Origin: Gemmatirosa kalamazoonensis
GTDB taxonomy: Bacteria > Gemmatimonadota > Gemmatimonadetes > Gemmatimonadales > Gemmatimonadaceae
Assembly: GCF_000522985.1 (NCBI RefSeq)
Contig: NZ_CP007130.1
Span: 186,001 to 250,000 of the forward strand
Length of the DNA: 64,000 nt
Direction: 5' to 3'
Of the stretch, positions 28,501-62,869 are shown one piece after another. The notes beneath the pieces are model-generated. The model was not told the origin of the DNA. It worked only from the letters and a program-made list of their open reading frames with translations, and made no database searches. Every line of letters starts with the position of its first letter. The stretch's first letter is position 1. The position numbers and the translations under genes are program-made.

Positions 28501-29055
28501 GGTGCTCCTTGTTCCACTTCTCTCCCCAGAGACCTCGGGGGTCGTAGGGTCACCGCACGCGGCCAGTGTGCCGCCCCGCGGTGGCGCGACCATCGACTCG
28601 TGTTAGGCTCGTACGAGCCCGTGAGCGGGTGGGTCGCCCTGGTGCTCTGACCGGTCGTGTCGGCGCGACCGCGTTCGCGGTGCACGACGAGAAAACCGGC
28701 CGAGCAGACGAGCGTCCTGGGAGAGGACCCTCGTGCTCAGCCGGTTTCGCGATTAGCTCCGCCCGACGCTAGGGCGATCCAGAAAACGGCGCGTCGGGCA
28801 TCATGGCTTCTGAGAGTCGAAAGATACCTGCGCGGCCCAGCAATAGCGAGGATTCGCGGCCACCAAGCGCGGTGCCGCAGACGCGCCACCGGGCAAGCTC
28901 CATCGACCACTGTCGCGTTAGGCACCGGCACAGCGCGCTGCGCCAGGATCCCGTGGAGCGGCTCGATCTGTTCGTGCTACAGCGCGCCGAGCCCCGCCGC
29001 GCCTAGCGCAGTGCGTCGAGTGTGTCGTGCAGCGCGCGGATCTCAGTCGTTCGGA
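28501..29055. other. Intergenic region with long imperfect hairpin
   Basis: About 555 nt without a supported gene. Two GTTAGGC motifs (28601 and 28917). The hairpin is listed separately. Confidence 0.3.
28693..28747. repeat. Imperfect inverted repeat (55 nt)
   Basis: Outer arms AAACCGGC (28693-28700) and GCCGGTTT (28740-28747) enclose GAGCA/TGCTC, CGAG/CTCG and GTCCT/AGGAC helices with small bulges. It could be a bidirectional terminator or part of an RNA. It lies about 310 nt downstream of the minus-strand gene ending at 29056. Confidence 0.45.
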
Positions 29056-36498: not shown

Positions 36499-36766
36499 TA
36501 CCGGCTTCCCACGTGTACGACCATCGCACAAGGAACCGCGCGCGACCGCGCTACGCCGGCGCGCTCTTGCGAGCCGCCGGATGACGGCATGGATCGGTCA
36601 CGGCCGTTAGGCGCGCGATACCGCGGGACTTACGTCTACGCGACCGGGTGTACCGGACGGCGCTGTTCGCGCTGACGCGCGGCGGCTACCCGGCGCGGCC
36701 CCCGCCACCCCGCGCACGTGAACGCGAGCAACCCGCGCTGCCTAACGTTTGTGGACAACTTCGCTC

Positions 36767-36794
36767 TTGCGGGACCGTCGCGGAACTGTATTAT
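36767..36794 (+). promoter_or_regulatory. Promoter of structured RNA, copy 1
   Basis: TTGCGG (36767-36772), a 16-nt spacer and TATTAT (36789-36794). The same boxes and spacing occur in copy 2 while the spacer bases differ, which supports a sigma-70-type promoter. A GCCTAACG motif lies about 27 nt upstream. Confidence 0.65.
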
Positions 36795-36800
36795 GGCACT

Positions 36801-37101
36801 GCGCGCGCGGGACGGGTTCCCGCGAGCGGAAGTCCTCCCGCGGGACGCCGATCGGAGGACATGTCCGTCGGAAGTTTGGCTCTGACGGATGGGTTGTGAG
36901 GTCGCTGGACACAACTGCCTGCTCCCGCAGAACGCGGGACATCCTGACTCGGGCCCGTCCTGACGAGGGAAAGATCGCCCGCCTGACCACGCTCTCGAAG
37001 GCCTAACCGTCGTCGAGAGGTGGCGCCAAAACGAAGGGCAGCGATCGCCAGCCGAAGCGAATCCCCGCGTGTGGTAGCGATACCACCGCGGGGATTCGTC
37101 G
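36801..37101 (+). ncRNA. Unassigned structured small RNA, copy 1
   Basis: About 300 nt, closely similar to 60579-60879. Helices: CGCGGGA/TCCCGCG; GTCCTCC/GGAGGAC; GTTGTG/CACAAC with loop AGGTCGCTGGA; TCCCGC/GCGGGA; CTCTCGA/TCGAGAG with a GCCTAAC motif in the loop; and a strong 3' hairpin. Between copies, base-paired positions change together (C-G to T-A in the TCCCGC helix; T-A to C-G and T-A to G-C in the last hairpin), while several loops are identical. A protein reading from the TATTATG start is interrupted here by TGA after about 30 codons, which argues for RNA. It does not resemble RNase P, tmRNA, SRP or 6S RNA as far as I can tell. Confidence 0.65.
37058..37098 (+). terminator. Terminator hairpin of RNA copy 1
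   Basis: A 12-bp stem (37058-37069 with 37087-37098), one bulged T, then a 6-bp stem closed by a GCGA tetraloop (37077-37080), followed by TCGTTTCC. It shows compensatory changes relative to copy 2. Confidence 0.65.
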
Positions 37102-37302
37102 TTTCCATCACAGCCACCGGCGCTCGCCCGCCGATGCGCGCGTCGCAGCGGCCCCGCTCGAGAAGCCGCCGTCGGGCGGCAGCGCGGCGGTACGCCGGCG
37201 CGCTCGCCGCTCGCCAGTGAACTCGAGCAATCTGCAGCACCGGAGCTCCCGGCTTGGCATCTCGCCAGGCATCGCCCGCCGCCCATTTCCCGCGCGACTA
37301 CC

Positions 37303-60332: not shown

Positions 60333-60544
60333 CGCTGCGGACGGCCCCGCGGCCCGTCACGGCGCCGGGCCGTGCGAGACGGCGGTCAGGCGAGGTGTTG
60401 CGCGACGGAATCGTCGCGCGACGCGCGAGACGCGCGGCGTCTGCGTGCTGCCTAACGACGTGACTCGGTCGGCGTGCGTGCGGAACGCCGCCACTCGTGA
60501 ACGCGAGCAAGCGCGCCGCCTAACGGTTGTGGAAAACTTCGCTC

Positions 60545-60572
60545 TTGCGGACGCGTCGCAGAGTTGTATTAT
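60545..60572 (+). promoter_or_regulatory. Promoter of structured RNA, copy 2
   Basis: TTGCGG (60545-60550), 16-nt spacer, TATTAT (60567-60572), as in copy 1. The spacer differs from copy 1 at several bases while the boxes are identical. A GCCTAACG motif lies at 60518. Confidence 0.65.
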
Positions 60573-60578
60573 GGCCCT

Positions 60579-60879
60579 GCGCGCGCGGGACGGGTTCCCG
60601 CGAGCGGAAGTCCTCCCGCGGGACGCCGATCGGAGGACAGGTCCGTCGATAGTTTGGCTTCGATGGATGGGTTGTGAGGTCGCTGGACACAACTGCCGGT
60701 TCCGCAGCCGCGGAACGACCTGAGTCGAGCCCGAACGACGAGGGTAAGATCGCCGAACTGACCACGCTCACGGACGCCTAACGGTTTCCGGGAGGTGGCG
60801 CCAAAACGAAGGGCGGCGGTCGCCAGCCAAAAGCGAAGCCCCGCACGCGGTAGCGATACCGCGCGCGGGGCTTCGTCGC
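60579..60879 (+). ncRNA. Unassigned structured small RNA, copy 2
   Basis: Second copy of the sequence at 36801-37101, on the same strand. Conserved helices and loops are as described for copy 1. The middle hairpin is GTTCCGC-AGCC-GCGGAAC here; the loop-GCCTAACG hairpin is CTCACGGA/TCCGGGAG. Unlike copy 1, the frame starting at the TATTATG codon stays open for about 50 codons, so a small protein cannot be fully excluded here. It sits between the exported-hydrolase run and the convergent S9 peptidase gene. Confidence 0.65.
60834..60875 (+). terminator. Terminator hairpin of RNA copy 2
   Basis: An 11-bp stem (60834-60844 with 60865-60875), one A-C mismatch, then a 7-bp stem closed by a GCGA tetraloop (60853-60856). 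It has compensatory differences from copy 1. Confidence 0.65.
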
Positions 60880-60988
60880 GCGAGCGAGTCGCGCACGGGC
60901 CGTTGTCGCACCGTCCCGCGGCCACCGCGTCACACCACGCGTGCAACCTGCGTGTGCTGCCTAACGAGACGCGTCGCGGCATCGGCGC

Positions 60989-62869
60989 TCAGCAGAGGAA
61001 CGACGCGAACGCCTCGTCCGGCTGCGGTGGCTCGATGCGACCCCCCAGCGCGGCGGCCAGAAAGGCCTCGGCCAGCGCGGCGAAGCGCTTCAGGTTCGCC
61101 GGGTGGGCCAGCCCGTGTCCCTCGTTGTCGAAGACCAGGTACTGCACGGGGACACCGCTCCCGCGCAGCGCCTCGACGAGCTGGTCGCTCTCCTGCTGCT
61201 TGACCCGCGGATCGTTCGCGCCATGCACCACGAGCAGCGGGACGCGAATCGATGGCGCGCGGAAGAGCGGCGACTGCGATTTCAGGAACTCCGGGTCGTC
61301 GCCGACGCGCTCGGTCAGCAGCTGCCGCATCGGCTCCCAGTAGGCCGGAATCGCAGCGAGAAAAGTCCGCAGGTCGGAGGGGCCCACGATGTCGACGCCG
61401 CACGCGAACGCGTCCGGCGTCCACGCGAGCGCCGTGAGCACCGCGTAGCCGCCGTAACTACCCCCGAAGATCGCGATGCGCGCCGGATCGGCGTAGCCTT
61501 CGGCGACGGCCCAGTCGCGCGCGTCGAGCAGGTCGGTGCGCATCGCGCCCGCCCACTCGCGATTCCCGGCGTTCAGGAACGCCTTGCCGTAGCCCGTCGA
61601 CCCGCGGAAGTTCACCTGCAGCACCGCGTAGCCGCGATTGGCCAGCCACTGCACGATCGGCTCGTAGCCCCACCGGTCGCGATACCACGGACCGCCGTGG
61701 ACGTAGAGCACCATGGGCAGCCGGCGCGGCGCCGCGCCGACGGGGAGGGTGAGATAGCCCCGGAGTGGGAGACCGTCGCGCGCGGGAAAGGCCACGGGCC
61801 GCATCGGCGCGAGCTCGTACGCGAGGAGCGGCGGCCGACTGCAGAACAGGAACGATGCGCGGTGCCGTGCGCGATCGTACGCGTAGAACTCCTCCGGTCG
61901 CGCATCGTGCCGATACCGCACGATCAGCGTGGCGCCGTCCGCGCTCGCGTCTTCGATCGAGAAGTCGCCGTCGTCGACCACGCGCAGCGCGTCGAGCTCC
62001 TCCGCGAAGCTCGCGGTGAGCGCGGCCCAGACCAGCCGCTCCTTGCAGACGGCCGCGGCGACGACGTCGTGCGTCGCCGGATCGACGAAGACGCGCTCGA
62101 CGTCATACTCGGGATCCTCCAGCACGACCACGCGCTCGGCGGTCGCCAGGTCGTACCGCACGAGCCGATTCGCGTTCGCATCCTTCGCGCTGATCGCGAA
62201 GAGCGCACGATCGTCGGACGAGAACGCGACGAGTCGCGGCGCGCCATCGGCGAAGGCCACCTCGTCGAGCACGCGCCAGGGCGCCGACGCGCCGTCGCGG
62301 ACGCGAATGACGTACGATCCGCCGGCCACTTGCGCGACGGCCGCGCGCACGACGAGCGCGTTGTCGACGAGCCAGGCGATGACGTCGCCCGAGTTCTCCG
62401 TGTCGAGCTCCGCGAGGCCCGCGGCCAGGTTCACCCGATGCACGTCGAGCAGCCGTGGCGTGCGTGCGTTCAGGGTCACGAGCGCCTCCTGCGGGAACCG
62501 CGCGTCGAGGGCGAGCGGCAGTGCGCGCAGGTGCTCGCCCGGCGTCAGGTCGCGCGGGGCGCCGCCCTCGAGGTCGACCTGATAGAGGTGGTAGTTCTCG
62601 TCGCCGGCGCGGTCCTGCAGATACAAGATGTGCCGCCCGTCGCCCTGCCACGTCGCCCACGGCAGCGGACGCACCGGGTCGTGCGCGACGACTCGATCGT
62701 CCCGCGCCCCGATCGTTCGCACCCACACGCTCTGCTTGCCGTCGTGCGGCGCCAGGTAGGCGAGCCGCGCCCCGTCGGGCGACACGCGCGCCGAGTCCCC
62801 CTCCGGGTTGCCGAACAGGGTCTCGCGCGGAATGAGCGGCGGCGGGCACAGCTCGAGTGAAGTCGTCAT
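60989..62869 (-). CDS. S9 prolyl oligopeptidase-family peptidase
   Basis: A 626-residue serine peptidase. The N-terminal half is a beta-propeller (about 15-370). The catalytic alpha/beta hydrolase domain has the nucleophile Ser in GGSYGGYAVL, Asp in GANDPRVK and His in NEGHGLAH. No signal peptide is seen, so it is probably cytosolic and acts on peptides. The start ATG 62869 is five bases from a 20-bp palindrome shared with the divergent TetR gene, so the regulator probably controls it. Confidence 0.9.
   Translation of the reverse strand: MTTSLELCPPPLIPRETLFGNPEGDSARVSPDGARLAYLAPHDGKQSVWVRTIGARDDRVVAHDPVRPLPWATWQGDGRHILYLQDRAGDENYHLYQVDLEGGAPRDLTPGEHLRALPLALDARFPQEALVTLNARTPRLLDVHRVNLAAGLAELDTENSGDVIAWLVDNALVVRAAVAQVAGGSYVIRVRDGASAPWRVLDEVAFADGAPRLVAFSSDDRALFAISAKDANANRLVRYDLATAERVVVLEDPEYDVERVFVDPATHDVVAAAVCKERLVWAALTASFAEELDALRVVDDGDFSIEDASADGATLIVRYRHDARPEEFYAYDRARHRASFLFCSRPPLLAYELAPMRPVAFPARDGLPLRGYLTLPVGAAPRRLPMVLYVHGGPWYRDRWGYEPIVQWLANRGYAVLQVNFRGSTGYGKAFLNAGNREWAGAMRTDLLDARDWAVAEGYADPARIAIFGGSYGGYAVLTALAWTPDAFACGVDIVGPSDLRTFLAAIPAYWEPMRQLLTERVGDDPEFLKSQSPLFRAPSIRVPLLVVHGANDPRVKQQESDQLVEALRGSGVPVQYLVFDNEGHGLAHPANLKRFAALAEAFLAAALGGRIEPPQPDEAFASFLC

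Follow-up and report, generated by a model that had tools for sequence, protein, structure and literature searches.

The 64 kb window (the whole stretch of DNA analysed, 64,000 nucleotides of the Gemmatirosa kalamazoonensis contig NZ_CP007130.1) contains two copies of what is very probably a genuine structured RNA gene, at 36767-37097 and 60545-60874, which are 85% identical over the RNA gene. Covariation among homologues establishes its secondary structure, and two pseudoknots, PK1 and PK2, are likewise established by sequence comparison. On balance, we read the gene as free-standing and its product as a trans-acting, compactly folded RNA that serves as a component of an RNP, a functional interpretation that is inferred and held by a modest margin.

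Two copies of the RNA gene in the window

Homology between the copies (86% over 387 bp, 36717-37101 against 60496-60878) does not reach beyond the RNA gene: the shared DNA begins about 50 bp ahead of the -35 box and ends with the 3' hairpin. When the genome was searched by blastn with a 335-nt query, copy 2 was matched at 85% identity (E = 1e-102) and no other comparable match was found. Covariance model R1, which spans 144 positions, scores copy 1 at 109 bits and copy 2 at 117.8 bits, and it located a third, diverged copy elsewhere in the genome (C2:4224282-4224431, minus strand). Inside the RNA, copies 1 and 2 differ by 1-nt and 2-nt indels, which favours a noncoding gene and argues against a protein. 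Folding z-scores against dinucleotide shuffles were -3.9 for copy 1 and -4.7 for copy 2, which is weak evidence alone because the sequence is high in GC. The features of the two copies, with the evidence for each in brackets, are as follows.

36767-36772 and 36789-36794, plus strand: copy 1 promoter boxes TTGCGG-16-TATTAT (sequence; same boxes in copy 2)
36800..37104, plus strand: copy 1 RNA, predicted transcript, ends approximate (homology, model score, folding)
36802..36829, plus strand: copy 1 H1 (own versus permuted pairing of halves, 54 members)
36810-36816, plus strand: copy 1 H1 loop GGACGGG, 5' half of PK2 (PK2 permutation test)
36832..36860, plus strand: copy 1 H2 (covariation)
36863..36890, plus strand: copy 1 H3, with a loop resembling the family's T-loop GUUCGRC (covariation)
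36891..36916, plus strand: copy 1 H4, with the near-invariant loop AGGTCGCTGGA (covariation)
36903-36908, plus strand: copy 1 H4 loop CGCTGG, 5' half of PK1 (PK1 comparison)
36921..36940, plus strand: copy 1 H5 (covariation)
36943..36969, plus strand: copy 1 H6 (covariation)
36954-36960, plus strand: copy 1 H6 CCCGTCC, 3' half of PK2 (PK2 permutation test)
36973..37046, plus strand: copy 1 H7, GATCGC/GCGATC (own versus permuted pairing)
36987-36998 with 37013-37023, plus strand: copy 1 H8, variable, inside H7
37048..37052, plus strand: copy 1 CCAGC, 3' half of PK1, five of six pairs here
37059..37097, plus strand: copy 1 3' hairpin, GCGA tetraloop, weak U-run (own versus permuted pairing)
60545-60550 and 60567-60572, plus strand: copy 2 promoter boxes TTGCGG-16-TATTAT (sequence)
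60578..60881, plus strand: copy 2 RNA, predicted transcript (homology, model score, folding)
60669..60694, plus strand: copy 2 H4 (PK1 loop CGCTGG at 60681-60686)
60823..60827, plus strand: copy 2 CCAGC, 3' half of PK1
60835..60874, plus strand: copy 2 3' hairpin (own versus permuted pairing)

Much of this anatomy had been described in a first-pass annotation made from the letters alone. Its two plus-strand copies with TTGCGG-16-TATTAT boxes at these places held, as did its observation that the boxes are identical and the spacer between them varies. Also upheld, by sequence, were three paired changes: one from C-G to T-A, in the GCTCCCGC/GCGGGAC hairpin, and two in the 3' hairpin with the GCGA tetraloop, where T-A became C-G at one position and G-C at another. 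The element is not confined to the two copies described, given the third copy. The covariance-model search it had proposed returned many homologues with conserved pairing, covariation gave overwhelming support, and there is strong backing for its interpretation of the element as a new structured RNA, which is extended here by two pseudoknots that it had missed.

Secondary structure and covariation

The alignment of oriented homologues is poor in gaps and includes invariant blocks such as TGTGAGGTCGCTGGACACA and CACCTGAGTCGGACCCGTCCGACAAGGG. The cleaner of two covariation tests used 22 sequences aligned with plain MAFFT, without structure. In this alignment 28 of the 41 proposed pairs change on both sides, compared with 16.2 in shuffles, and 92.1% of cells pair, compared with 36-48% when partners are slid; no shuffle among 500 reached any covariation measure. 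The second test used 60 sequences in an alignment that was fitted to the model, where every one of the 41 core pairs changes on both sides. Its covariation score of 0.654 compares with 0.242 when shuffled. The covariance model does not include H1, H7 or the 3' hairpin; their halves pair better with their own partners than in any of 2000 permutations.

A T-loop-like GUUCGRC occurs in H3 across the whole RNA family, and a subfamily (L057, L075, L091) composed of the genome's third copy and members from genus g16 has a longer H7 region that contains a T-arm-like hairpin, GGGTTCGAACCC.

Pseudoknots PK1 and PK2

In PK1, the hexamer CGCUGG of the H4 loop is the exact complement of a conserved CCAGCG that adjoins the 3' hairpin. 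A compensated type, UGCUGG/CCAGCA, occurs in two separate lineages, and further compensated types are CACUGG/CCAGUG, CGUCGG/CCGACG, CGCCGG/CCGGCG and, in two genomes, CGUUGG/CCAACG. The exceptions are member L086, in which an internal pair is broken, and the window copies, which form five of the six pairs. This internal pairing accounts, at least partly, for the near-invariance of the H4 loop, and we regard H4 as a keystone of the structure, which need not be a functional site exposed on the RNA. This refines an earlier proposal that the GTTGTG/AGGTCGCTGGA/CACAAC hairpin, described as the most conserved part, may be the functional core.

PK2 joins the H1 loop GACGGG to the H6 loop CCCGUC, and its covarying types include GACGAG/CUCGUC, GACGGUC/GACCGUC, GACGGAC/GUCCGUC, GCGGUC/GACCGC and GCGGCA/UGCCGC, among others. 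Over 44 distinct loops, the longest runs of pairing with the own partner sum to 244, compared with 196.7 expected, a sum reached by none of 20000 permutations. In the window, PK2 comprises seven pairs in copy 1 and four in copy 2 by a strict count. Neither pseudoknot is part of the search model, and the two together are therefore an independent validation of the family.

Promoter and 3' end

The earlier description of a promoter and a terminator was not confirmed by scans in the window copies. Neither window promoter was called by a consensus promoter scan, both falling below the scanner's threshold; the boxes are identical in copies 1 and 2, and the sequence of the spacer between them differs. 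Across the family, promoter boxes are enriched: sigma70-like boxes scoring at least 8/12 lie upstream of 45% of members, where shuffles give 16% and the reverse strand 8%. By eye, several divergent members show boxes close to the consensus, among them TTGACG/TATCCT and TTGATG/TATACT.

On the plus strand, the scan called no terminator with a T-run following the 3' hairpin of either window copy, and the 3' end of these copies is uncertain because a convincing U-run is absent. U-runs follow the 3' hairpin in many relatives, and there it is a terminator hairpin.

Two side observations concern the flanks of the gene. The 3' hairpin of copy 2 (60834-60875) was called as a minus-strand terminator with 19 pairs and a CTTTTGG tail, and it is possible that this hairpin is bidirectional and serves the convergent S9 peptidase gene at 60989-62869. 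In much of the Gemmatimonadaceae set (for example L061, L058 and L063), an inverted repeat resembling TTCAGG-N-CCCTGAA lies directly upstream of the -35 box or overlaps it, and could conceivably be an operator; the window copies have other sequence at this position.

Distribution

Matches by blastn were found in 21 of 149 related genomes, several of the 21 being Gemmatimonadaceae MAGs. Of 395 sampled Gemmatimonadota genomes, 87 gave the RNA with model R1 and 112, representing 52 of 138 genera, with a broader covariance model, R2. All of the genomes of the phylum found with R2 belong to one class, in which they are spread over several families, and they carry up to four copies each. We inspected 20 of the weaker R2 matches: 13 have the full six-pair PK1 directly before the hairpin, three have five of the six PK1 pairs, one is cut by a contig end, and three (L194, L195, L196) were judged false, being without PK1 and the 3' hairpin. 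The count of 112 genomes is slightly too high because of these three, and it is likely that divergent members are still missed by R2. The distribution is patchy, with many near-complete Gemmatimonadaceae genomes lacking the RNA by R2; this patchiness within its own family indicates that the RNA is not universally essential.

A pattern scan of 84,980 genomes, combined with the model, placed the RNA only in Gemmatimonadota and in two MAGs labelled as gammaproteobacterial, one of them as Steroidobacteraceae, which score 130 and 124 bits. Sixty-odd pattern matches in other records failed the covariance model and were set aside as chance, and two in viral contigs were rejected as not confirmed by it. 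Gene order around the RNA is common to both gammaproteobacterial MAGs over about 6.9 kb, at about 66-78% identity, and contamination is unlikely because these MAGs, which share it, come from different studies. A third genome of that gammaproteobacterial family, likewise a MAG and found in a search of 217, scores 112 bits. These occurrences look like either an uncommon transfer into that lineage or a narrow presence there.

Genomic context

Across 42 loci, no gene family recurs beside the RNA apart from synteny within lineages, and the RNA gene is thus not linked to any neighbouring gene. The neighbours are unrelated to one another and include peptidases, an acyltransferase, HMG-CoA reductase and HSP20, among others. 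RtcB, named by eye from sequence, was considered as a conserved partner gene and rejected, as it adjoins two members and is not general. The RNA was absent from the plasmid and phage collections searched, and no sign was seen of a mobile carrier or of an IS end, the latter having been named in the first-pass annotation as a finding that would refute its interpretation. The lack of a conserved neighbour, together with the absence from plasmids and phages, points to action in trans, which we consider very likely though inferred, and speaks against a cis leader or a mobile origin.

Comparison with known RNA families

The statement that the element matches no known RNA family held: Rfam gave no match to either copy even with permissive filters, and divergent members had none at E <= 0.5. 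In a scan of the window against Rfam 15 at gathering score, the sole match lay elsewhere, a c-di-GMP-II-GAG riboswitch (RF03169) at 28731-28820 on the minus strand, with 45.8 bits, over the gathering score.

The closest likeness in style is to raiA/ModT (RF03072), a free-standing, trans-acting RNA with eight helices, two pseudoknots and a housekeeping promoter (PMC11706538). Like raiA/ModT, the RNA described here is free-standing, similar in size, rich in helices, equipped with two pseudoknots and wide in its clade (PMC11706538). An anatomy analogous to that of raiA is present in PK1, PK2 and the promoter boxes, the partners not being shown to be the same as those of raiA. Unlike raiA, which belongs to Bacillota and Actinomycetota, the RNA is found in Gemmatimonadota and does not match RF03072; cmscan gave no match at E <= 10 for copy 1, copy 2 or the close relative L058, and none at E <= 0.5 in 15 further loci. 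A search of 59 relatives also returned no raiA match, but the controls there gave no match either. We conclude that the RNA is akin to raiA/ModT in style and not detectably related to it.

OLE, ROOL and GOLLD are stabilised by kissing loops and conserved intermolecular contacts (PMC12286853). The RNA resembles them in being structured, in having covarying loop-loop contacts and in a function that is unknown or partly known (PMC12286853), and differs in being smaller and in having no Rfam match. With 6S RNA (RF00013) it shares the status of a free-standing regulatory RNA gene, but it is a multi-hairpin RNA with pseudoknots rather than a long rod with a central bubble, and it does not match RF00013.

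The RNA is undescribed in the open-access literature searched, although a subscription paper may list it in a supplement as a candidate without a name. We rate the class as categorically new because no known family passes the membership test; the broad category to which it belongs, free-standing structured RNAs of unknown function, is already known.

Proposed function and significance

In the model that we propose, each window copy is a free-standing noncoding RNA gene, the two being recent copies, and would be transcribed from its own sigma70-type promoter into an RNA of about 300 nt; transcription from the boxes is inferred, and there is no transcript evidence. The transcript would consist of H1 to H7 and the 3' hairpin, H7 enclosing the variable H8. 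PK1 would join the central part of the RNA to its 3' end, and PK2 would join the hairpin at the 5' end to H6, yielding one compact particle, which may act within an RNP as a scaffold or as a protein decoy. Protein binding is our preferred mode because the conserved positions serve tertiary architecture rather than a long exposed antisense stretch. It is inferred by analogy, no protein partner has been identified, and we would not put it beyond an even chance.

The RNA probably belongs to a class of RNA machines or regulators that has gone unrecognised, its function being inferred. Few free-standing multi-pseudoknot RNAs cross many genera (raiA, OLE, ROOL and GOLLD are such RNAs), and the studied members of this group proved unusual in structure or function. 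The RNA occurs in a poorly studied phylum that is common in soil, its consensus structure is firm enough for immediate probing and cryo-EM, and it would add a new family to Rfam, while about a hundred sampled genomes would have their annotation corrected. A bolder reading, to which we lean slightly against committing, is that it is a new class of RNA machine across Gemmatimonadetes, nucleating an unknown RNP or self-assembling via H1-H6 kissing; if true, the RNA could take on, for instance, global control where 6S RNA is not detected in the phylum.

Alternative explanations

The alternative that survives best, although we think it unlikely, is an RNA-only assembly in which PK2 is a kissing contact between molecules, giving homo-dimers or larger forms, as in OLE, ROOL and GOLLD. 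The loop-loop pairing of PK2 covaries strongly, covariation is blind to whether a contact is within or between molecules, and kissing loops and intermolecular contacts stabilise OLE, ROOL and GOLLD (PMC12286853). At about 300 nt, however, the present RNA is smaller than ROOL, GOLLD and OLE; moreover, one molecule can satisfy both PK1 and PK2, and the published model of raiA/ModT, an RNA of much the same size, likewise places two pseudoknots within a single molecule (PMC11706538).

It is similarly unlikely that the RNA is an antisense sRNA that base-pairs with mRNAs via an exposed loop. A free-standing gene with its own promoter and differing, lineage-specific copies is common for trans-acting sRNAs, but the near-invariant loop is paired with the conserved 3' strand, almost everything else that is conserved lies within covarying helices, and inspection of the alignment left no long conserved unpaired stretch.

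A 6S-type RNA, mimicking an open promoter and controlling RNA polymerase, is very unlikely. The slot may be vacant, since the 6S model (RF00013) gave no match over its cut-off in this genome, while five control genomes matched, nor in 121 sampled Gemmatimonadota genomes; against this stand the chain of hairpins locked by pseudoknots, without a long rod and central bubble, and the patchy presence of the RNA. We give as little credence to a ribozyme or self-processing RNA: a compact multi-pseudoknot fold with conserved internal loops is typical of catalytic RNAs, but no known ribozyme family in Rfam was matched and no conserved single-stranded cleavage site was recognised.

A cis-regulatory leader or attenuator of the next gene, like a riboswitch, is all but ruled out. 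A pseudoknot directly followed by a terminator-like hairpin is an arrangement often seen in riboswitches, but only about half of the loci have the next gene on the same strand, the genera share no neighbouring gene family (over 42 loci the RNA does not hold a fixed position upstream of a conserved one), and copy 2 is convergent to its downstream gene. The end or cargo of a mobile element, or an integron cassette, can be practically discounted as well: several copies per genome, patchy presence, the three gammaproteobacterial genomes with the RNA and the octamers GCCTAACG beside the copies, which recall attC core words, would fit, but homology ends at the RNA gene with no larger shared element, neither plasmids nor phages gave a match, the GCCTAACG words are scattered over the window, including coding sequence, without an attC arrangement, and about 6.9 kb of gene order is conserved around the RNA in two gammaproteobacterial genomes.

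An iterated octamer in the window

The idea of attC sites or an integron, raised by the GCCTAACG words, was rejected, the words being dispersed, wrongly ordered and not arranged as attC. The criterion of paired GCCTAAC...GTTAGGC core sites around the RNA element was not met, and a composite attC pattern was absent from the genome. We counted about 49 occurrences of the octamer GCCTAACG/CGTTAGGC over the 64 kb, where about one is expected under an order-2 model, in both coding and intergenic DNA of the window (forward examples at 931, 994, 8563, 36740, 60450, 60518 and 60959; reverse at 1671, 3187 and 37724). The octamer is absent from most relatives examined, and is frequent in locus L071 (8 in 10 kb) and elsewhere in the genome (L057). 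It has the appearance of an iterated genome word, perhaps an uptake, repair or segregation signal, and not of attC.
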